Shown here one piece after another: positions 1,071 through 24,150 of a stretch of DNA of 64,000 nt. Within the stretch, counting starts at the first letter, position 1. Each line of letters starts with the position of its first letter. The DNA lies in contig JAJRQY010000157.1 in the NCBI GenBank assembly GCA_024280015.1, positions 1 through 64,000 of the forward strand. Reading direction: 5' to 3'. Source of the DNA: Actinomycetes bacterium (GTDB taxonomy: Bacteria; Actinomycetota; Acidimicrobiia; Acidimicrobiales; SZUA-35). Below the pieces are notes generated by a model. It did not search any database, was not told the DNA's origin, and saw only the letters and a list, made by a program, of their open reading frames with translations. The translations under genes were made by a program, and so were the position numbers.

Positions 1071-1871
1071 TTACTCACGAACCGTATTGGTAAACCCAGC
1101 ATGATGTCCAGTGTCGTGTCCACTGTTGATCAGAACGACGCGAAGATCGGGCTCTCTCGTGTGCAGTACATCCGCCAGCTCCTCGGCCAATGAACGCGTG
1201 GAATCATCAACCTTGGTCACAACAATCACATACTCTGCGCCATCGGGACGAGCCCGGCGCGGTCCGTTCGGGTGAAGCAAGACACGGGCCGCGTGGACAG
1301 GATCAAGCCGCTGGTACGGATGACAGCGGGCCAAGGCTGCTACCCGCAACGGTCGGTGACACTGGTCGGAAATGACCCGACCCAGGGCATCCGCACCAAT
1401 AACCGAAAGTAGCTTGGTGGCCGATGTTGGCACCACCGGCTCAAACGGGGCCGGTGCTTTGAACGGCAACTGTCGTGAGCCGTCGGCCTCAACAATGAGA
1501 TGGTCCACCAGTTGAGCAAGCTGGTCGCAGACCTCAGGCGATACACCGCCAACCTTGGGGCCAACAGCTGCCCGCTCCGTAGTCCTGCTGATGACTGTCG
1601 TGTCGCTCATGTTCCAAACCAGAACAGGTTCCTCTCTGGCTTGGATAGCCGGGTCATCCTCCGGCCTCACCACTCGGAATCCACCGTGCTGGTGCGAACC
1701 CATTCGGGTCGTCGTTGTCATGATTACCGATCCGTCAAGCTGGCGCCCGAGGGTATGAAGCAAGGTTGTCTTTCCCCCTCCACCAACCAAAGCGATGTGC
1801 TCGTGATCACCAAAGTCCAGGCTGTTGCTCAGGTCCGCCAGGTCAATGCTCACGGGCTGGTCAATGCTCAC
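1071..1871 (-). CDS. yqeC: YqeC-family selenium-dependent molybdenum hydroxylase accessory protein
   Basis: A 266-residue protein of the YqeC family, which comparative genomics ties to selenium-dependent molybdenum hydroxylases. A P-loop-like GGGGKTTLLHTLG lies at about residues 30-42, followed by MTTTTRMG, and the family signature EADGSRQLPFKAPAPFEP is present near the middle. These are NTPase features; the exact reaction in maturing the selenated molybdenum cofactor is not established. It overlaps yqeB by 11 bp, so the two are likely translationally coupled. No residue loss is visible in the motifs, which argues that cofactor maturation in this operon is still under selection. Confidence 0.87.
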   Translation of the reverse strand: MSIDQPVSIDLADLSNSLDFGDHEHIALVGGGGKTTLLHTLGRQLDGSVIMTTTTRMGSHQHGGFRVVRPEDDPAIQAREEPVLVWNMSDTTVISRTTERAAVGPKVGGVSPEVCDQLAQLVDHLIVEADGSRQLPFKAPAPFEPVVPTSATKLLSVIGADALGRVISDQCHRPLRVAALARCHPYQRLDPVHAARVLLHPNGPRRARPDGAEYVIVVTKVDDSTRSLAEELADVLHTREPDLRVVLINSGHDTGHHAGFTNTVRE

Positions 1872-2706
1872 GGGTTCGGTTGTCCCGTTCTATGACCATT
1901 CGGTTCTGCCAGGTGAGCACTGCCTCAAGCACTCCGCCACCAATGGCTAAGGCTTTGTCGGAAATCTGGTCGTAGGTGGCATCCAACCGTGGATCGACGT
2001 CACCGATCTTGTACTCGGCCGGCACAACCTGACCATCTCGGATCAGACCTCGGACAAGGCCATCGAAGGGGGCAAGGACGTCACTATCGCTAACTCGTCC
2101 GAGAACCTGATGCTCCTTCACCCCTTCTCCAATGGCGCAGTTCCAGTGGACTTGCCCCTCCACGGGTGCTCGAAGTACTCGTTCAGACCCCCAGCCATCG
2201 ACAATGCCAGGCACACCGGTATTGGGGGCAGCCGACCCAATCCAAAGGGCACGGCCCAGTCGAGAACCTCGCTTGGTTTCCACAACGACGTGACAGTCTT
2301 GGCCTACTTCGAACCCCGGTCCCAAAGCAATCACCAGCTCCGCATCATCAGGAGAGGTATCGATATTGCGCTTGGCTAGCCGAGCATCAATCACCACTGA
2401 AGCCCGATCCCCTGGAGTTTCGCCGCCGGGTAGATCAGCCGAAACCAGGACCGCCACCGCTCCCCCAGCAGCAACCTCAACCGCTTCGTCGTAGGAGGGC
2501 GCCAATCGACCGACGAGCCCTTCAATATCGACCGCACCGTCATCCACCGCGCTGGAAAGACTCACGGTTCGTCGAACCGCCAGTGGCTCAGCCAACTCCG
2601 TGACGATGACCGGGAAGCCGCTTCGAGACAATCGCCACGCCACACCGGTGGCCAGATCTCCTCCACCTCGAATGAGACAGAGCGGCCTGGCCGGAAGCTC
2701 ACTCAT
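1861..2706 (-). CDS. yqeB: YqeB-family selenium-dependent molybdenum hydroxylase maturation protein
   Basis: A 281-residue member of the YqeB/EF2563 family. The N-terminal LIRGGGDLATGVAWRLSRSG (about residues 12-31) is a Rossmann-type glycine loop, and TELAEPLAVRRTVSLSSAV follows, both classic for the family. The C-terminal part contains a biotinyl/lipoyl-like stretch (APVEGQVHWNCAIGEGV and LAPFDGLVRGLIRDG). The family is known from genomes with SelD and selenium-dependent molybdenum hydroxylases and is thought to act in making or inserting the labile selenium ligand; the mechanism is unknown. It overlaps xdhC by 4 bp and yqeC by 11 bp. All motifs look intact. Confidence 0.88.
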   Translation of the reverse strand: MSELPARPLCLIRGGGDLATGVAWRLSRSGFPVIVTELAEPLAVRRTVSLSSAVDDGAVDIEGLVGRLAPSYDEAVEVAAGGAVAVLVSADLPGGETPGDRASVVIDARLAKRNIDTSPDDAELVIALGPGFEVGQDCHVVVETKRGSRLGRALWIGSAAPNTGVPGIVDGWGSERVLRAPVEGQVHWNCAIGEGVKEHQVLGRVSDSDVLAPFDGLVRGLIRDGQVVPAEYKIGDVDPRLDATYDQISDKALAIGGGVLEAVLTWQNRMVIERDNRTREH

Positions 2707-3521
2707 TCTGTTGAGGCTCGTTGACTGGCAATGACCTCGGCCAGGATCGATACCGCAATCTCGGTCGGAGTTTCCGCTTCGATGTCCAGACCAATGGGCG
2801 AGTGGACGCGATCAAGATTGGCTGCTGTCTCACCGGCATCAGACAGCTTCTGGCGCGTGATTTCCCAGCGACGTGTACTGCCCATGATCCCGATGAAGGA
2901 TGCCGAGCTGGCCAACAGTGGCGGCAGGATCTCAACATCGAGACCAACATTGCGAGTGGTCATGACCACGAGGGTTTGCTCATCAATTGGTGCAGCTTCT
3001 AAAGCGCTTGTGATCGGACCGGTCAAGACCTCGACCCCGGCAATTGAGGAATCAATCGAGGAGGCAAGCTCTTCTCGATCATCCCAAGCGACCACCCGGT
3101 AGCCAAGCCAGCGAGCCAACTCGACCACAGCCTGGCCAACGTGACCAATACCAATGACGTACACGGTTGCTTGTGGCATATGAGGCTCCAAGAAGATCTC
3201 GACCGAGCCACCGCACACGCCAGGATCACCAGCAGCGGCATCGACCAGTGAATAGTTCAGTCGTCGTGGCCGCCCATCGGACAAGGCCTCGCTGGCCTCA
3301 GCCACAATCCTGGCTTCCATCTCGCCACCGCCAACGGTTCCCGATGTTGTCCCATCGGCGTACACCAGCATCTTGGAACCAGGGCCGCGTGGGACGGACC
3401 GATCGGTGTCAACAATGGTGGCTAGGGCAATCGGTCGGCGAGCAGCGATTGCTGCCCGCAACTCATCCAGCAAGGCGACACCAGCGGCGCCACTGGGTAC
3501 AGGAACAAGGGGTTCAACCAT
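2703..3521 (-). CDS. xdhC: XdhC/CoxI-family molybdenum cofactor insertion protein
   Basis: A 272-residue XdhC-family chaperone, which binds molybdenum cofactor, supports its sulfuration and inserts it into XDH-type hydroxylases. The N-terminal XdhC_CoxI domain shows ALATIVDTDRSVPRGPGSKM and GTVGGGEMEARIV; VCGGSVEIFLEP closes it. The C-terminal Rossmann domain starts at VYVIGIGHVGQAVVELA. The position often occupied by Cys in the GGC-VE motif is Glu here (GGGEME), which I believe also occurs in other XdhC proteins, so I do not treat it as a defect. It overlaps yqeB by 4 bp and shares one base with the amidohydrolase stop, fitting one co-translated operon serving the hydroxylase at 4861-7788. 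Confidence 0.9.
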   Translation of the reverse strand: MVEPLVPVPSGAAGVALLDELRAAIAARRPIALATIVDTDRSVPRGPGSKMLVYADGTTSGTVGGGEMEARIVAEASEALSDGRPRRLNYSLVDAAAGDPGVCGGSVEIFLEPHMPQATVYVIGIGHVGQAVVELARWLGYRVVAWDDREELASSIDSSIAGVEVLTGPITSALEAAPIDEQTLVVMTTRNVGLDVEILPPLLASSASFIGIMGSTRRWEITRQKLSDAGETAANLDRVHSPIGLDIEAETPTEIAVSILAEVIASQRASTE

Positions 3522-4828
3522 CAGTCACCCCACAATCGCCGGGCTTGCTCGTGAGTCTTGGCTCGCATCTGGTCAATGTCGGCTCCCAAAAGCTCACCCT
3601 TGCGGACCCGCCATTGGCCAGCAACCATGACCGAATCAACATCACGATGGTTACGCCACAACACCAGTTGCTCAAACAAATTGTGGGCGGTCACCGGTGT
3701 CGGAAAGTGTGCATCCACCAGCTGCAAGTCTGCACTCCATCCAACATCCAGTCGACTGATCTTGTCCAGGCCGAGTGCCTTTGCTCCACCTTCGGTCGCC
3801 AACCCAAGGACGGTGTTTGCCGGCATCACCCCAGGGTCAAGCCGGCGAGCCTTAGCCAGCAGGAATGACCCTCGCATGACCTCATAGAAGTCATTGATGT
3901 AGCCATCGGTACCCAACCCAACAGTCACGCCGGCTTCCAACAGCTCCGGGATCGGAGCAATGCCTCCACCAACCTCGCAGTTGGACAAGGGCATATGACT
4001 AACCCTCACGCCGCGCTCAGCGATGATTGCTCGATCCGAGTCGGTGAGTTGCACACACTGGCTAGCCAGGAAGCCCGGCCCGGCAACACCAAGCTCGTCG
4101 TAGTACTCAAAAGTCGACTTGCCGTACTCGGTTTGGCACCAGTTTCCTTCAAAATGACTTTCGTTGGCGTGGGCGTGAGTAAGGACTCCCAGTTCAGATC
4201 CAAGCTCAAAGGCCGTGCGGATGAAGTCGGCCGAGCAGGTAAAGGTGGTGTGGAAACACATCAGACCTGAGACCAGGCCGTCGGGTTGGCAGGCCTTGAT
4301 CAGATCGACGTTTTCTTGCAGGCTGATGGTGGCCGTTTCTGATCCGGCCCGTTCGGTTGCCTCAAAACTCAGCAAGGCTCGAATGCCTCGTTGTTCAACC
4401 ACTTCCTTCTCTACCAACAGCGCACCAGGCAGAGAACTCGGGGCTTCAAGAATGTCGTAGAAGGTTGTCGTTCCCGACCGCAGCATTTCGGCGCAGGCCC
4501 AATCGGTAGCTGCTTCGATCATTGGTTTGTCCAGGGCATCTTCGACCTGGGGCCACCAGTAGTCCTCCAGAAAGCTGCCGAAGCCGTCGGGCGGTGAATG
4601 CACATCGATGCCGTGGGCCAACACGCCATACATGTGCACATGGGCATTGACGAAGCCGGGCAGACACACCTGATCGGGAACCTTGATGCATTCGTCCTCG
4701 GGGTAACCAGAAACAAGGTCAGCGGCGGATGCAACCTCGACGATCTGGTCGTCGAGGACCCGAAGCCCCCACCCCTGGCGGGGAGGAGTGTCAGCACTGA
4801 CGATGAGCCAGCCAGGCAAGATCAACAT
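3521..4828 (-). CDS. SsnA-like amidohydrolase, metal site intact, active-site His replaced
   Basis: A 435-residue amidohydrolase of the TRZ/ATZ-guanine deaminase superfamily, closest in style to SsnA, which is found beside selenium-dependent molybdenum hydroxylases. Metal ligands are visible: HVH at residues 63-65, His220 in HAHANE with Glu223, and Asp308 in GLGTDGYINDFYE. In related deaminases a further histidine in a (L/A)AHCVHL motif helps position the substrate; here the segment reads ASQCVQL, so both histidines are glutamine (Gln257 and Gln260). SsnA itself has no well-proven reaction. The gene lies 32 bp after the hydroxylase and abuts xdhC. It may be a deaminase with changed chemistry, a binding protein, or an enzyme on an unusual substrate. 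Confidence 0.82.
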   Translation of the reverse strand: MLILPGWLIVSADTPPRQGWGLRVLDDQIVEVASAADLVSGYPEDECIKVPDQVCLPGFVNAHVHMYGVLAHGIDVHSPPDGFGSFLEDYWWPQVEDALDKPMIEAATDWACAEMLRSGTTTFYDILEAPSSLPGALLVEKEVVEQRGIRALLSFEATERAGSETATISLQENVDLIKACQPDGLVSGLMCFHTTFTCSADFIRTAFELGSELGVLTHAHANESHFEGNWCQTEYGKSTFEYYDELGVAGPGFLASQCVQLTDSDRAIIAERGVRVSHMPLSNCEVGGGIAPIPELLEAGVTVGLGTDGYINDFYEVMRGSFLLAKARRLDPGVMPANTVLGLATEGGAKALGLDKISRLDVGWSADLQLVDAHFPTPVTAHNLFEQLVLWRNHRDVDSVMVAGQWRVRKGELLGADIDQMRAKTHEQARRLWGD

Positions 4829-4860: not shown

Positions 4861-7788
4861 TCAGGATTCCTTGCCCGCATCAAGAGCTTGCCAGACCCGC
4901 TCGGGAGTGAAGGGCAAATCATTGATGGCAACCCCCGTTGCGTTGAGGATGGCATTTCGCAACGCGGGGGCCACACCGTCCTTGGGGATCTCGGCTACCG
5001 CCTTGGCGCCAAAGGGTCCGCTGTCTTCCATTGTTTGGACCAGGAAAACCTCGGTCGAGGGCATCTCGTCGGCCCGGTAGATCTTGTAAGGGCCGAAGGC
5101 AGCGTTGACCATGCGGCCATCATCGTCGAAGGCATATTCTTCACAATGGGCATAACCAAGGGCTTGCATCATGCCGCCCTCGACCTGGCCAGAAGCGGTG
5201 ATCGGGTTGATAGCGACCCCACAGTCAACGGCCATGACCAACTTGATGACGGTGATCTGCCCGGTATCGACGTCGAGCTCGATCTCGACGAACTGGGCGG
5301 CGAAGGGTGGTGGGCAATCGGGTGAGACGTAGGAGGCAGTATCCATGATCTGTTCCTGGTCTTGCCAATGGAGTGAGTCCAAGGCGATTTCTTCCAGGGT
5401 GACCGAGCGCCCGTCGGGACTCCAAGCTTTGCGGTCTCGCAATTCGATGGTGCAGGGGATCTCGATATCCAGCAGCATGGCTGCGCGTTCCTTGATGCGC
5501 TTGCGTACCTTCTCTGCGGTCAGCTTGGCCGCGGTTCCGGAGATGTAGGTGGTGGAGGATGCATAGGCCCCAGTGTCAAACGGGGTGATGTCGGTGTCAG
5601 AGGAATAGACCTTGATGTCATCCAGCGGCACGCCAAGCACTTCGGCGGCAATCTGGCCAATGACCGTGTCCGCACCTGTGCCAAGGTCGGTGGCCCCGAT
5701 CAGCATGTTGAACGAGCCGTCATCGTTCATCTTGATACTGCAACCGCCCATATCCAGGAACGGGATGGACGTGCCGTGCATGCAGAAGGCAAAGCCGAGG
5801 CCGCGACGAATGTTTGGCCGATCGGCCGGATTGGTCCACTGTGGATCATTACGACGATGCCACCCAATGGCGCGCTCAGCTTGGGCGACACATTCGTCGG
5901 TACCGCTGGTGACGACCTTGGGGTACTCGTCCATCTCGCCCTCTTCGACCGCCCGCTCACCCAGGTGGGGAGCAATGTCCAGCTCGTCCCCGACCTTGAC
6001 CCAGTTCTGGCGTTTGAACTCCAGAGGGTCCCGACCGAGGTCATGGGCGATGTCTTCCATATGGGCTTCGAGTGCGAACTCGGCCTGGGGAGCGCCATAG
6101 CCGCGATAGGCACCAGGAACAGGAATATTGGTGTAGACAACGTCGCAATCAAACCGCTTACTCTTGGAATTGTACGACGTCAGCCCTCGCAGCCCGGCAA
6201 CGGTTTGCACCGTGCTGGCGTGGGTTCCAAACGGACCAGTATTGCCAATCATGCGCATGTCTTGAGCGAGAAGGCTCCCGTCGTCGTCCACTCCGGTGCG
6301 GAAGGTTATGGTCTGGGGGTGGCGGGTCCGAGAAGACATGAACTCTTCTTCCCGTGTGAGTTCCAACTTGACCGGTCGCCTGGTCTTGATGGCCAGGTGA
6401 GCAACAATGTCCTCGATCAGCATCTCCTGCTTAGCGCCGAAACCGCCACCGATCCGGGGTTTGATGATCCGGATGTTCTTGATTTCCATTCCGACAACCG
6501 GGGCCAACATGCGGCGAACGTGGAAGGGCACCTGGGTAGCAGTCCGAACAACGAGGCGCTCGTCCTCGTCAAGCCACGCCACCGAAATATGGTTCTCGAT
6601 TGGGCAGGGCTGAACCTGATGGACCCGGAAGGTCTGCTCATACGTCTTGGGAGCGTTGGCTAGCTCTTGGTCAACGTCACCTCGCATCGCTCCGATATGG
6701 ACGACAATATTGTGGTCGCGGTCGTGGATGCCTTCGGTGTCGGCCTCATCGTGGATGTTCGGTGCCCCATCGAGGATGGCTTCGCGTTCATCAAATACCG
6801 CGGGCAACACCTCGTACTCGACCTTGATCAGTTGCAGCGCCTCTTCAGCAATCTCCAGTGTTTCGGCGGCAACAGCAGCGACCCGGTCACCGACATGGCG
6901 GACCTTGTCGTCAAAGCTGACCTGGTCATAAGGGTGGGGGTTGGGCCAGCTCTGGCCGCCAGAGGCGTACTTCACTCGGGGCAGATTCTGGTAATGGATA
7001 ACCGCGTGCACTCCTTGGAGGGCAACGGCGGCGGAGTCATCGATGTCAAGGATTCGAGCGTGGGCGTGGGGACTGCGAAGCACCTTGGCGATCAGCTGGC
7101 CCCGTGCTTCAAAATCGTCGGTGAAGGCAGCGTTTCCCTTGACCAAGCGGATGGCATCCACCTTGATCTCCGACTTGCCAACAACGGACATCTCGGGAAC
7201 GTCATCGGAAGGAATCAGCCGCGGAACCGCGTCCAGGGCGGCGGGAGCAACATCATTGGGGTCAACAACAACCGGGCTCTTGCCGTCAGTCATTGGCTGC
7301 ACGGTTAAAGCTTCGAAGGCTTCCAAGGTTTCGCCCCGCATCGAGGCCGCAGCGCGAAGCACTGCGTTGACCGGCTTCACATAGGCAGTCTCGCGGTCCA
7401 AGATCCCCGAAAGCATGTCGCGCACATCGGCTTCGGTTGGATTGGGATTCTCGGCGATGAGGGCGTAGGAGCCCAGGATCATGGCCGGGGCCGAGTAGCC
7501 GGACTGGAGGGCGCCGGAGGTGACGAACGCTTCCTGGATGGGATGCATGTCAACCGCGTTGAGGGCCTCAAGGGTCATCACGTCGTGGCCGTCAGCCTGG
7601 GCGGCTAGCAGGCAGTCGGTGTTGATGAGCTTGCCGTCGATCAGGACGGCACTGGCCCCGGTTTCACCGGTGTCGGATCCATAGCGAACACTAACCATGC
7701 CTTCTCGTCGCAGAGCGACAAGGAGAGTGTCGAAGGGTTCGACGTCGAGAGTGGTTGGTGCTCCGTTGAGGGTAAGTGAGATTTCCAT
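4861..7788 (-). CDS. molybdenum hydroxylase, molybdopterin subunit with a cysteine-less [2Fe-2S] domain
   Basis: A 975-residue XDH-family protein: ferredoxin-like and helical [2Fe-2S] domains (about 1-155) fused to the molybdopterin domains (about 200-975), the layout of XdhD-type enzymes. The molybdenum part looks complete: GGGFGAK at 447-453, GAYRGYGAPQ at 559-568 and the catalytic Glu at about 933 (AVAE, in place of GVGE). In the N-terminal part the fold signature is clear (TGASAVLIDGK, AAQADGH, HPIQEAF, NPTEADVRDMLSG), yet all eight cluster ligands are changed: Ser38, Thr43, Ser46, Asp58, Ser96, Ser99, Asp131 and Glu133. Gln95, which normally contacts the cofactor, is kept. ATG 7788 was chosen because homology starts there and a GGGGAAC sequence precedes it. 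The FAD subunit ends 4 bp upstream. Confidence 0.93.
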   Translation of the reverse strand: MEISLTLNGAPTTLDVEPFDTLLVALRREGMVSVRYGSDTGETGASAVLIDGKLINTDCLLAAQADGHDVMTLEALNAVDMHPIQEAFVTSGALQSGYSAPAMILGSYALIAENPNPTEADVRDMLSGILDRETAYVKPVNAVLRAAASMRGETLEAFEALTVQPMTDGKSPVVVDPNDVAPAALDAVPRLIPSDDVPEMSVVGKSEIKVDAIRLVKGNAAFTDDFEARGQLIAKVLRSPHAHARILDIDDSAAVALQGVHAVIHYQNLPRVKYASGGQSWPNPHPYDQVSFDDKVRHVGDRVAAVAAETLEIAEEALQLIKVEYEVLPAVFDEREAILDGAPNIHDEADTEGIHDRDHNIVVHIGAMRGDVDQELANAPKTYEQTFRVHQVQPCPIENHISVAWLDEDERLVVRTATQVPFHVRRMLAPVVGMEIKNIRIIKPRIGGGFGAKQEMLIEDIVAHLAIKTRRPVKLELTREEEFMSSRTRHPQTITFRTGVDDDGSLLAQDMRMIGNTGPFGTHASTVQTVAGLRGLTSYNSKSKRFDCDVVYTNIPVPGAYRGYGAPQAEFALEAHMEDIAHDLGRDPLEFKRQNWVKVGDELDIAPHLGERAVEEGEMDEYPKVVTSGTDECVAQAERAIGWHRRNDPQWTNPADRPNIRRGLGFAFCMHGTSIPFLDMGGCSIKMNDDGSFNMLIGATDLGTGADTVIGQIAAEVLGVPLDDIKVYSSDTDITPFDTGAYASSTTYISGTAAKLTAEKVRKRIKERAAMLLDIEIPCTIELRDRKAWSPDGRSVTLEEIALDSLHWQDQEQIMDTASYVSPDCPPPFAAQFVEIELDVDTGQITVIKLVMAVDCGVAINPITASGQVEGGMMQALGYAHCEEYAFDDDGRMVNAAFGPYKIYRADEMPSTEVFLVQTMEDSGPFGAKAVAEIPKDGVAPALRNAILNATGVAINDLPFTPERVWQALDAGKES

Positions 7789-13179: not shown

Positions 13180-13899
13180 CTAGTCAACCATCGGCTTCAC
13201 TGGGCCATAGATCGAGGGCTCGCCGGTGATTCCTGACCAGCGGCGAGTGCCGTATTCGAAGTGCCACCACTCACCGACGAAGACCACGAAGCCGGCGTCA
13301 CGCATGGTCCAGTACAACAGCCTTCGAATCTCGCGATCGGGCCCGGGCTCGTCTTCAATCGAGCGGGCGAACGCTCGGGTTGTTGTGTCATCGAAATCAG
13401 TGCCGGGGGCTATGGCAGCGCCATCAACCGTCAGGGTCAAGTCAACGGCTCCTCCGCTTTCATGCGGAGCAGGTCTGGTTTCATCCTGGGAAGGCTCGGA
13501 CATGAAGTCCTGCGGGAGGGCCGGGTCGGCGATCGCGGTGTAGTACAACTCGGCTTGTAGCTCTCGTGGCCGCCAGCCGTCATAAACGGCGAAGCCGTAC
13601 GGCTTCGGTAGGGATTCAACTGCCTGATACAGCCGCTTGGCCACACCGGAGCGGAGCCAACACTGGGAAATGGCATGCTCCCAGCCACCGAGTTCGTAAA
13701 ACGGAACCACCTTGATCCGGGGGTGATCGACCAGAACAAGCGGCTCATCAACGGGAGCATCAACCGTCGGCATAGTCGGCTCCACCAGTTCCGGCAGGGC
13801 CGGTTGCTCCTCCAGAGTGACTCCAGCAGCAGCCAGAGCCTGAGTCGCTGGAATACCAAGACGGGGGAAGCCAAGTTGTCGATAGTTGGTTTCTGTCAT
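13180..13899 (-). CDS. VanX/DdpX-like M15 D-Ala-D-Ala-type dipeptidase
   Basis: A 239-residue zinc dipeptidase of peptidase family M15D. The zinc site is visible as H-x(6)-D in PHESGGAVDLTL and as the E-x-x-H element EWWHFEYG near the C-terminus; AVYDGWRPRELQAELYY carries the conserved Arg-containing stretch. No signal peptide is seen, so it is probably cytoplasmic. No van ligase, dehydrogenase or sensor genes are near, so resistance is unlikely. It overlaps the amidohydrolase gene by 4 bp, and together with the luciferase-like gene upstream it suggests a catabolic step, for example cutting a dipeptide-like or ring-opened intermediate. That role is inferred from context. Confidence 0.82.
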   Translation of the reverse strand: MTETNYRQLGFPRLGIPATQALAAAGVTLEEQPALPELVEPTMPTVDAPVDEPLVLVDHPRIKVVPFYELGGWEHAISQCWLRSGVAKRLYQAVESLPKPYGFAVYDGWRPRELQAELYYTAIADPALPQDFMSEPSQDETRPAPHESGGAVDLTLTVDGAAIAPGTDFDDTTTRAFARSIEDEPGPDREIRRLLYWTMRDAGFVVFVGEWWHFEYGTRRWSGITGEPSIYGPVKPMVD

Positions 13900-15317
13900 C
13901 GGGTTAGACGGGACTCGACCCCGGCTTTGCGGAACAAGTGGCGGGCAGACTCGGTGGCCTCTTTCAACAACGCCTCCTCATCAATGGCAGTCAGCCGCCG
14001 GTCATCAATGGTCAGGTGCCCGTCGACCATGACGTGGGTGATGTCGACGGGACTATTGCAGAACACCAACGAACTCACTGGCCGGTGAACCGGAGAGGCG
14101 AACACGGTCTGCTGGTCAACCACCACCAGGTCAGCCTTGGCTCCAACTTCAAGTCGGCCAAGCTCGTCATCGGTACCGACCTCTTGAGGAGTGCCGAAGG
14201 CGCGGGCGCCGCCACGACAAGCCATCTTGATCACATCTTCTGGTTGCAAGGCAACCGCGTCCAGGTGATGCACCTTCTGCAATAGCACGGTCGTCTTCAG
14301 AACTTCGAACATGTCCTGGCGGTTATTGCTGCCAGGACCGTCTGAAGCCAGGGCCACGGTAATCCCCCGCTTTTTCATGTCCAGGATTCGGGCAACACCC
14401 GAAGCCAGATACATGTTGGACACCGGGCAATGGACAACAATGGCACCACTCTTGGCGATCAGATCCAACTCCTCATCATCCAGCCAAACACTGTGCGCAA
14501 GCTGCAAGTCTGGTCCAAGAGCACCAAGCGAGTCCAGCCAGTGGATATGGCGAACCCCCCGCTCCTCCAAGCTCATATCCACTTCGACCTGGGTTTCCGC
14601 ACAGTGGATATGGGTGCCGACACCCCATTCCCGAGCCTTGTCGATGGTCAATCGCATGGCTTCATCGGAGCATCCCCAAGGGATTAGCGGGGCGAGTTCA
14701 ATCCGGACCCGAGGGTGATCATTCCAACGATCACGAAGCCGGGTGGTGCGCTCAATCACGACCTCACCGGACTCACTCAAGTCCGGGTGATAGTTGCGGT
14801 CGGCCCAGCCCCGCGCCAGTCGCAGGCGGATGCCAAGCTCATCTGCCGCCTCACACACAGCCTGGTCGATTTGCTCGTCAATATGGACATATTGATGATC
14901 GACGACCGATGTGGCTCCGGTCCGCAGATTCTCGGCCAGTCCAACCAGGGCAGCCAGTCGAGCACTGTCTCGATCCAGGTGAACGGCTCCCGGCCAGATG
15001 CACTGCTTGAGCCATTCCAACAGGGGCTTATCGTCGGCCAGTCCTCGAAAGAAGGTTTGGAAGAGATGGGTGTGGGCGTTGGTCATGCCGGGCATGACCA
15101 GCGAGCCCGTAGCGTCAATGGTTCGATCGGCAGAACTACGAACCAGGTCGGGAGCCCGGCCCGAGCCAAGGCCAACAATGCGATCACCAGCAATGTGGAC
15201 CCAGCCTGGATCATGAACGGTGAAGTCATCATCGACGGTGACGACGACGCCACCCTCGATCAAGGTGCCGCCAGACGGATTCCCGGCAGGCTGTATCCCG
15301 GCAGGCGACTGTGTCAC
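13896..15317 (-). CDS. amidohydrolase, 8-oxoguanine deaminase / AtzB-TrzN type
   Basis: A 473-residue TRZ/ATZ-family amidohydrolase. Metal and catalytic residues are complete: HTH in [26 protein letters not shown] (His and Glu), the active-site His in LAHSVWL, and Asp in ASDGPGSNN. This family deaminates or dechlorinates N-heterocycles such as 8-oxoguanine or s-triazines. The start is GTG 15317, which overlaps the stop of the luciferase-like gene as GTGA; the stop end overlaps the dipeptidase by 4 bp. Unlike the SsnA-like protein at 3521-4828, no catalytic residue is missing. Substrate is unknown; a purine- or hydantoin-like ring is likely from context. Confidence 0.85.
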
Positions 15318-16342
15318 GAAGGATCCCAGTCAGCAAAGGCGTCGACCACTGGCTTCACGTCGGGCATCATGGGGAACAGGATCGGGCAGGTCACGCCAGC
15401 ATCAATGAACTCGGCAACCTTGTCTCGACACTGGGCCGACGTACCGACGGCCATCAGCTTGCGGACCAGCTCATCGGGAATCAGGTGAGCGGCTTTGCGA
15501 TAGTCGTCCTCGGTTGCTGGCCAACCAACAACCTCCTTGACCCGCTCCACCAACTCGGGATCCGCACCCGATGCCTCCATGATGTGAGGCTCAGTTCCCA
15601 AGTAGTAGGCAGCCAACGACTTGCCGGTCATCACGGCCTCATCTGGATCGGTGTCAGACAGCGAGCAAACAAGAAGCTCTGGACGGTCGATGTCCTCAAT
15701 GGATTTGCCAACCTTGGCTGCACCGGCGGCCACCTTGTCGACCGCTCCGCGAATGTAGTCAGGCGAAACCACATAGTTGAGGACGACACCGTCAGCGATC
15801 TCGCCGGTCAGCTCTAACATCTTGGGACCAGTGGCGCCGACATACATGGGGATGTCGCGAGGGCCCACCTCGCCATAGGCCACATCGAGCCGGACCCGAT
15901 CCAGCTGGACAAACTCACCCTCATAGGTGACCTCTTCCATGGTGAACAACTGCCGGATGGCTTCAATATTCTCGCGCATGGCCTTGAGTGGTTTGCGTCG
16001 ATCGGCCCCAACCCGACTAGCGATCGGCTCCCACCAGGCTCCGAGACCACACATGACACGGCTCTCGCCTTCGGGAGTGAGACCACCCAATTCCCACATG
16101 GTGCTCCATGTTGCGGCAATGACTGCAGGGTTCCGGGTGTAGATCGGCAGCACCCCGGAGCCGATTTTCAGCTTGCTGGTCTTGGTTAACAAGGCACTCA
16201 TCATGACGATGCAATCACGGGCGAGTCTCGTGTCGGCCTGCCAGATTTCGGAGAAACCCTTCTCCTCGGCGTACTGAGCGATCTCCAGCTCGTACGCCAT
16301 ATTGTGCTTGTCTTGGAGGTAAAGAGCCATGCGGTGTGCCAT
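15314..16342 (-). CDS. luciferase-like F420-dependent oxidoreductase
   Basis: A 342-residue TIM-barrel enzyme of the luciferase-like/F420-dependent (MER-like) family. Typical segments are [40 protein letters not shown] and [14 protein letters not shown], then [22 protein letters not shown]. It opens an operon with the amidohydrolase and the dipeptidase (both joined by 4-bp overlaps), so it probably oxidises or reduces the same substrate series. F420 rather than FMN is the likely cofactor in actinobacteria, but this cannot be read directly. The ATG at 16342 is followed by an immediately recognisable N-terminus. Confidence 0.85.
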
Positions 16343-22743: not shown

Positions 22744-24150
22744 CTAGATCAAGACGTCACTGAGGGACCGAGCCAAGAATTGCCCGTGGCCGGCACGGCC
22801 CTGGTAGACCCGGTTGTCCAGAACAACCGAACCTCGCGACAAGACGGTTCGGACCTGACCGGTGACTTCCATGCCTTCCCACACTGAATGGTCCACGTTC
22901 ATGTGGTGAGTGGCCACCCCCAAGGTGTGCTGAACGGCCGGGTCATAGATGACAATGTCGGCATCTGCCCCTGGGGCAAGCACACCCTTGCGGGGATACA
23001 TGCCAAACAGTCGAGCCGGAGTGGTTGAACACGTATCAACCCACCGAGCCAGACTTAGTTCACCCGCGACCACACCCTGATAGATCAGGTCCATCCGATG
23101 CTCCAGCGAACCGAGACCGTTTGGAGTGGGACGAAAATCGTCAATTCCAAGTCGCTTCTCCGCATCACAGAACGGACAATGATCGGTCGACACCACTGCC
23201 AGGTCATTTATTCGCAAGCCCTTCCAGAGATGGTCATGGGTCGAAGCTGGCCGGAGCGGAGGGGAACAAATATGACGCAGGCCGGCCTGACCGGTCTGAT
23301 CCAGGTGCTCCTCAAAGGACAGGTACAGGTACTGAGGACAGGTTTCAGCAAACACGTTCTGGCCTGCATCACGGGCCCAAGCCACTTGCTCCAATGCTTC
23401 AACCGAAGTCAGGTGCACGATGTACAACGGGGCCTCGGCCACTTCGGCTAACGCACCAGCACGGTGAACAGCTTCGGCCTCGAGTCGGGCTGGTCTGGTG
23501 CGACCGTGCCAAACCGGATCAATGTCGCCGCGTTTCACTGCCTGATCCCGCAGCACATCGATAGCGATGCCGTTCTCAGCGTGCATCATTGACAACGCAC
23601 CCAATCCACCAGCCCGCTGCATGGCCTGCAACAACTGGCCATCATCGGAGTAGTTCGCACCGGGGTAAGCCATGAAGAACTTGAAGCTGCTGATCCCCTC
23701 ATCAACGACGTTCTTCATCTCACCCAGCGAGTCCTCGTTGATGTCACCCATCGAAAGGTGGAAGCCATAGTCGATGGCACACTGACCTTGAGCCTCGGCA
23801 AGTCGCTCCTCGATGACGTCGCGAACCTGGAAGCCCTGCATCTGGCCAGCGAAATCGATGATGGTGGTCGTTCCACCCCATGCCGCGGCCGCTGTTCCCG
23901 ATTCAAAGGAATCGCTGGACGTTGCCTCCGGACTCATCGGCAATTGAAGATGGGTATGGACGTCAACCCCACCAGGAACGACATAACAACCGCTGGCATC
24001 GATGATCTTGGCTGACGATGCTGCGGCTGAGTGGGCCAGGTCCGACGCAGGGTCCAAGACCGCAGCAATCGTCTCCCCATCCACGATCAGGTCAGCTGGC
24101 GTCGCTCCGGACGAAGAAACGACTTGGCCGCCCTTGATCAGGATGCTCAT
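22744..24150 (-). CDS. hydA: dihydropyrimidinase / D-hydantoinase
   Basis: A 468-residue cyclic amidohydrolase. The binuclear zinc site is complete: HTH in GGVDVHTHLQLPM, the carbamylated lysine in SFKFFMAYPG, His in MMHAENG, His in IVHLTSVEAL and Asp in VVSTDHCPF. The substrate tyrosine region GANYSDDGQL is also usual. The enzyme opens hydantoin or dihydropyrimidine rings in the cytoplasm. It lies 22 bp after the cNMP-domain gene and fits the idea that the NMT1-type transporter nearby imports a pyrimidine- or hydantoin-like compound. No beta-ureidopropionase is seen in the window. Confidence 0.92.
   Translation of the reverse strand: MSILIKGGQVVSSSGATPADLIVDGETIAAVLDPASDLAHSAAASSAKIIDASGCYVVPGGVDVHTHLQLPMSPEATSSDSFESGTAAAAWGGTTTIIDFAGQMQGFQVRDVIEERLAEAQGQCAIDYGFHLSMGDINEDSLGEMKNVVDEGISSFKFFMAYPGANYSDDGQLLQAMQRAGGLGALSMMHAENGIAIDVLRDQAVKRGDIDPVWHGRTRPARLEAEAVHRAGALAEVAEAPLYIVHLTSVEALEQVAWARDAGQNVFAETCPQYLYLSFEEHLDQTGQAGLRHICSPPLRPASTHDHLWKGLRINDLAVVSTDHCPFCDAEKRLGIDDFRPTPNGLGSLEHRMDLIYQGVVAGELSLARWVDTCSTTPARLFGMYPRKGVLAPGADADIVIYDPAVQHTLGVATHHMNVDHSVWEGMEVTGQVRTVLSRGSVVLDNRVYQGRAGHGQFLARSLSDVLI

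Follow-up and report, generated by a model that had tools for sequence, protein, structure and literature searches.

Textbooks define the XDH-type enzyme family by its Mo-FeS-FeS-FAD relay. The window analysed here, a stretch of 64,000 nucleotides from an acidimicrobial Actinomycetes bacterium, encodes a member of this family in which both iron-sulfur sites have lost their cysteine ligands. This raises the question of how such an enzyme balances its electrons, and whether its iron-sulfur domain is a decaying remnant or a maintained part of the protein.

An emptied iron-sulfur domain under purifying selection

Translation of the window gives an XdhD-like protein of 975 residues without interruption (Table 1), in which all eight [2Fe-2S] ligands are replaced. 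The raw codons at the positions of the N-terminal cluster are TCC (S38, 7677-7675), ACC (T43), AGT (S46) and GAC (D58), and those of the C-terminal cluster are TCC (S96), TCG (S99), GAC (D131) and GAG (E133). A sequence-only reading of this DNA had proposed a kept two-[2Fe-2S] domain fold with all eight cysteines lost in an uninterrupted frame, pointing to the TCC codon of residue 38. Alignment, profile match and codons bear this out. The N-terminal domain aligns block by block with E. coli XdhC, an ordinary Fe-S subunit that has all eight cysteines (XdhC/window: GCCVGECGAC/GSDTGETGAS; DSC/NTD; QCGFC/QSGYS; LCRC/LDRE). The sole cysteine within residues 1-394, Cys59, lies one residue past the lost fourth ligand and is not conserved, being valine or isoleucine in most relatives. 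Pfam Fer2_2 still detects the emptied domain, which matches Fe-S subunits in the PDB at 1e-28 to 1e-8, and a search with this domain alone returns mostly ordinary Fe-S subunits.

Table 1. Features of the window around the XdhD-like gene, in order of position.
Feature	Position	Strand	Basis or remark
YqeC, selenium cofactor factor	1071..1871	-	TIGR03172 151 bits, cut-off 73
YqeB, selenium-dependent Mo cofactor factor	1861..2706	-	TIGR03309 289 bits, cut-off 220
XdhC-type Mo cofactor insertion chaperone	2703..3521	-	profile searches
SsnA-like amidohydrolase	3521..4828	-	PRK07203 231 of 444 bits, under SsnA cut-off
XdhD-like fused Fe-S-domain/Mo-domain protein	4861..7788	-	975 aa, without Fe-S ligands; alignment, profiles, AlphaFold2 model
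Molybdopterin-binding part with Q419, Q454, R562, E611, E933	4879..7191	-	Pfam MoCoBD_1/2 252 and 246 bits
Cluster-free ferredoxin and helical domain, residues 1-155	7324..7788	-	Fer2_2 61 bits; PDB Fe-S subunit matches
Former ligands of the C-terminal (helical-domain) cluster: S96, S99, D131, E133	7390..7503	-	alignment, raw codons
Former ligands of the N-terminal (ferredoxin-type) cluster: S38, T43, S46, D58	7615..7677	-	alignment, raw codons
YgfM-like FAD subunit, 248 aa	7793..8539	-	stop codon 4 bases ahead of xdhD start codon
Second amidohydrolase, aminopurine/triazine deaminase type	13896..15317	-	directly upstream of the FAD gene in many orthologous loci
F420-type luciferase-family oxidoreductase	15314..16342	-	TIGR03555 166 bits, Pfam Bac_luciferase; homologues in relatives' xdhD operons
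D-hydantoinase (HyuA class)	22744..24150	-	TIGR02033 504 bits, cut-off 393

An AlphaFold2 model built with 38 relatives (pLDDT 84.9, pTM 0.85) has the Desulfovibrio aldehyde oxidoreductases 1sij and 1dgj as its closest PDB structures (TM 0.80/0.85). These share the one-chain Fe-S plus Mo fold of the window protein, but both of their clusters are present, they act on another substrate class and they are only 24-25% identical. Among the hallmarks of the XO family, the window protein has the MoCoBD_1/2 and hammerhead domains, the catalytic Glu and the Mo-site Gln, and lacks the two [2Fe-2S] clusters with their eight cysteine ligands. ORF and family searches of the window recognised no Fe-S subunit gene adjoining the window gene; the remaining Fe-S and FAD subunits of the source genome are on other contigs. 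With all eight ligands lost, the textbook electron path is impossible in this enzyme, and the earlier conclusion that this path is closed stands, since both clusters are missing from a gene that is not decaying.

A scan of GTDB genomes, in which many orthologues were found, places the window protein in a Cys-less clade of 69 members from Acidimicrobiia, Nocardioides, Anaerolineae and other hosts. The replacements are near-invariant in this clade (E133 in 69/69; S96 in 68/69; S38, T43 and D131 in 67/69; S99 in 66/69), the N-terminal site being more variable with S/A/G at 46 and D/E at 58, and 22 of the 69 proteins have no cysteine at all in residues 1-160. Between close pairs of relatives, dN/dS is about 0.04-0.17 in the Fe-S domain and 0.01-0.13 in the Mo part. 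At matched Mo-domain divergence (70-80% bin), the N-domain has diverged to the same relative degree in the Cys-less and Cys-intact groups (identities 0.58 and 0.69). We show here that the Fe-S domain is held by purifying selection as a cluster-free scaffold. A pseudogene, a sequencing error or relaxed selection has nothing in its favour and next to no chance of being right: the 69 clade members, the gene without stops and the low dN/dS of the domain rule it out. The situation that would have spoken against the sequence-only reading, homologues all with cysteines beside a relaxed or misassembled copy, was tested for and is not what is seen.

Repeated loss of the cluster ligands

Chloroflexota relatives with the same fused layout provide intermediates, from eight cysteines through single-cluster loss to double loss. 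The N-terminal cluster alone is lost in 11 species forming one clade (DSDGCCCC type), the C-terminal cluster alone in one protein (L235, CCCCSDSE), and both clusters in the chloroflexotal protein L141, where seven of eight ligands are gone and one cysteine is left. In the canonical geometry, neither single leftover cluster is able to bridge Mo and FAD. In a tree from Mo-domain columns alone, the window clade is one group (100/100), L141 sits among Cys-intact rows (100/98) and enteric XdhD forms a separate branch outside the fused clade; the double-loss rows were never united in any bootstrap tree. AU tests rejected a single origin of the cysteine loss, with p=0.001 when the window clade was forced together with XdhD and p=8e-5 when it was forced together with L141. 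Thus, the window clade, enteric XdhD and L141 lost both clusters separately, and counting both single-cluster states there are about five loss events in the lineage. The relay that defines the family was taken apart on several separate occasions, E. coli XdhD among them, and each time the Mo active site was spared.

An apparent GCCCCCCC pattern in four Chloroflexota turned out to be a one-residue alignment shift (FGGC), and the clusters of these proteins are therefore counted as intact. Many relatives come from draft or metagenome-assembled genomes. Chloroflexota-like xdhD genes occur on contigs labelled Acidithiobacillus, Methanosarcinaceae and Brocadiia (L147, L148, L137), by horizontal transfer or misbinning; these bin labels may be wrong, and the tree is unaffected. 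At five loci (L208, L209, L210, L213, L225), Mo proteins of the XdhD lineage lack a fused Fe-S domain; most have separate genes for FAD and Fe-S subunits next to them, which may be the arrangement that preceded fusion.

One could imagine that the emptied sites hold another cofactor or metal through S96, S99, D131 and E133. The acid at 133 and the serine at 96 do recur in the other losses of the C-terminal cluster (SNDE in L141, SDSE in L235, SNSD in XdhD), however a polar plug or a salt bridge fits this pattern equally well. The N-terminal site is less conserved and one member has Ala-Ala-Ala-Glu there. We regard a replacement cofactor as very improbable.

The molybdenum site, its neighbourhood and E. 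coli XdhD

In contrast to the cluster ligands, Q419, Q454, R562, E611 and E933 are identical in nearly all fused members, Cys-less and Cys-intact; E933 is the catalytic Glu that had been placed near residue 933 from the sequence. Window E611 corresponds to E606 of E. coli XdhD, proposed to orient uric acid (Li et al., 2025, PMC12507026). The FAD subunit and the XdhC-like, YqeB and YqeC neighbours named earlier are all present, YqeB and YqeC above their NCBIfam cut-offs. The source genome has YqeB, YqeC and SelD, the set by which selenium-dependent Mo hydroxylases are recognised, and this combination would suggest a selenium-dependent Mo site in the window enzyme. The SelD gene (G000 C58:4240-5163, L072) carries an in-frame TGA in HGAG-U-GCK and its product is probably itself a selenoprotein.

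The reductive uric acid pathway comprises XdhD, SsnA, a yanthine reductase and HyuA. The window has the XdhD-like protein, an SsnA-like protein under its cut-off, an F420-type protein and a D-hydantoinase above cut-off, the latter a possible later pathway step. Because the SsnA-like protein falls under its family cut-off, the substrate is uncertain and uric acid is presumed. F420-type variants of this pathway in Chloroflexota were already noted by Li et al. (PMC12507026). Comparable operons accompany both kinds of XdhD. With eight cysteines, L236 has SsnA above cut-off and the order SsnA ... F420 protein-FAD-XdhD-XdhC, and L212 has SsnA and YgeY above cut-off plus YqeA and YgeW. Without cysteines, Nocardioides L129 has the order SsnA-F420 protein-...-carbamoyltransferase-FAD-XdhD-hydantoinase, its SsnA near cut-off (415/444) and its D-hydantoinase above it, and Nocardioides L131 has an L129-like operon (F420-carbamoyltransferase-FAD-XdhD-hydantoinase). 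Common Mo-site residues and similar SsnA/F420 operons in Cys-less and Cys-intact members indicate that the catalysed step appears independent of the Fe-S wire.

Two further observations concern the surroundings. A Peptidase_M15 (D-Ala-D-Ala dipeptidase-type) gene lies at window positions 13180-13899, with homologues near the xdhD operon in several Acidimicrobiia (L082, L093, L101, L109, L130, L136). On another contig of the source genome (G000 C110:16352-21805; L023, L002), a YgfK-like protein (594 aa, 379 bits) is encoded directly after a different Mo hydroxylase (856 aa frame), possibly a second purine-reduction locus.

The sequence-only reading knew of no described XDH-family enzyme with this pattern. 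E. coli XdhD (b2881), however, also lacks all eight ligands and has no cysteine in its first 189 residues. The two proteins are full-length homologues (38% identical in the multiple alignment, 35% by BLASTP) that share the fused layout, a YgfM-like FAD subunit encoded directly upstream and the equivalent of Glu606, and the FAD subunit, SsnA-like, XdhC-like, YqeB and YqeC neighbours resemble the E. coli xdhD region. They differ in the independent origin of the ligand loss, in R562, which is Gln in E. coli XdhD, and in the partner, which is YgfK in E. coli, whereas an F420-type protein is encoded in the vicinity of the window gene. Against the XdhD equivalog TIGR03313 the window protein reaches 652 bits, under the cut-off of 1101.9, and the tree supports its place in the broader XdhD lineage all the same. 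The Cys-less branch is therefore a widespread variant of a known family, with the E. coli uric acid reductase among its relatives, rather than unprecedented. In the open-access literature searched, we found no paper on the missing XdhD ligands; as far as read, PMC12507026 and PMC12990295 make no mention of them, and the word cysteine does not occur in PMC12507026.

A possible closure of the molybdenum cycle without iron-sulfur clusters

Ligands were lost about five times while the Mo active site and, where comparable, the operon type were retained, from which we infer that the Mo reaction of this lineage is independent of an internal Fe-S wire. Among the roles proposed from the sequence, self-contained Mo chemistry and a structural role of the domain are still good readings. 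A hydratase-like non-redox role is disfavoured, because E. coli XdhD is reported to be redox-active with NADH as reductant (PMC12507026). The reading we tentatively favour, possible though short of an even chance, is that of an XdhD-lineage Mo enzyme that dehydroxylates oxopurines as part of an F420-type form of the reductive uric acid pathway, its Mo cycle closed without Fe-S. The Mo site is probably selenium-dependent. By transhydroxylation, a second substrate would complete the cycle between Mo(VI) and Mo(IV) directly at the Mo site, one substrate being hydroxylated and an oxopurine dehydroxylated, and the FAD subunit would be retained for docking or another role. Such closure would be the simplest way to dispense with the wire. 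Reductive dehydroxylation itself has a relative in Thauera 4-hydroxybenzoyl-CoA reductase (1rm6), the best PDB sequence match (TIGR03194 533 bits) and a relative of the window protein in its Mo domain. The Thauera protein differs from the window enzyme in its Fe-S clusters and in its FAD subunit, which carries an additional [4Fe-4S]. For hydroxyl transfer at Mo without net redox change, the analogue is pyrogallol-phloroglucinol transhydroxylase of the DMSO reductase family, which stands outside the XO family and is unrelated in fold and cofactor type.

The FAD subunit bears on this reading from two sides. In the window it keeps the AGGT and ATIGG loops, with Thr in place of the usual Asn of TIGGN, and its best match is the YgfM profile TIGR03312 (82.8 bits, under the cut-off of 241.5). 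The GGT and ATxGG loops are retained in most FAD subunits of the window clade (first GG 59/60, T 57/60, second GG 60/60), the Asn being replaced mostly by Thr, Leu or Val and in YgfM by Glu. Where a Cys-less locus of the window clade extends far enough upstream, the FAD gene is nearly always the direct upstream neighbour of xdhD. Judged by the sequence of these loops alone, flavin is probably still bound, which counts against transhydroxylation. In favour counts L141, which lacks seven of eight ligands and whose FAD-subunit homologue (L141:4602-5465), the only FAD_binding_5 match in that genome, appears to lack the flavin motifs. Closure by a second substrate would account for cluster loss in either order and for the flavin-motif loss in L141.

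The conserved loops and gene order would be explained if NAD(P)H passed electrons to the flavin in the YgfM-like subunit, from where they reached Mo by a non-canonical path, through altered docking, domain movement or residue hopping. We consider this a credible alternative, though somewhat less probable than the reading above. XDH geometry separates FAD from Mo by more than about 25 Å, a distance that direct transfer does not span at a useful rate. With the XDH-like docking modelled by Li et al. (PMC12507026) this gap would be too long, and the TIGGN Asn is replaced in the window clade and in YgfM. In the same study, a preparation of purified E. coli XdhD containing co-purified YgfM is reported to form yanthine from uric acid with NADH, and a commentary by Percudani describes YgfM as an electron-transfer module and cites a confident AlphaFold3 complex (PMC12990295). 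Electrons may thus really come from FAD, which argues against transhydroxylation. However, the controls listed were without enzyme or without substrate, none clearly without NADH (PMC12507026), and the XdhD kinetics are unpublished (PMC12990295). Conversion of uric acid to yanthine is also cited for C. sporogenes XdhAC (PMC12990295). E. coli without xdhA failed to consume xanthine (PMC12507026), arguing against xanthine as the hydroxyl acceptor in E. coli. Several xdhD operons contain a second, canonical XDH, so a pure xanthine-to-yanthine isomerase is not required. With low confidence, we place closure by a second substrate slightly ahead of the FAD-to-Mo route.

A small diffusible hydride donor, reduced F420 or NADH for example, could also reduce Mo directly at the active-site channel, leaving FAD and Fe-S vestigial. 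Many of these operons encode an F420-type oxidoreductase, and clusters and flavin site were lost independently in different lineages. Against this stand the conserved flavin loops of the window clade, and we know of no precedent in the XO family for Mo reduced in this way; we hold it to be improbable.

E. coli XdhD stands at the entry to a uric acid pathway of medical relevance, and its electron path is assumed to be XDH-like. An engineered uricolytic probiotic strain now makes use of this enzyme. In the boldest form of the transhydroxylase reading, which we consider unlikely, the widespread and repeatedly evolved XO-family class without an Fe-S wire, E. coli XdhD included, would consist of enzymes that transhydroxylate purines at a (Se-)Mo site without net redox change, and the assumed NADH-FAD-Mo route of E. 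coli XdhD would be wrong or incomplete. Nature offers a graded series (eight cysteines, either cluster lost, both lost, and both lost together with the flavin motif) with which the question of electron balance can be tested directly. At four further loci (L146, L149, L152, L153), FAD-subunit homologues are encoded upstream of xdhD with AGGT and TIGGN motifs that appear erased or missing, and the neighbouring XdhD proteins retain eight cysteines.
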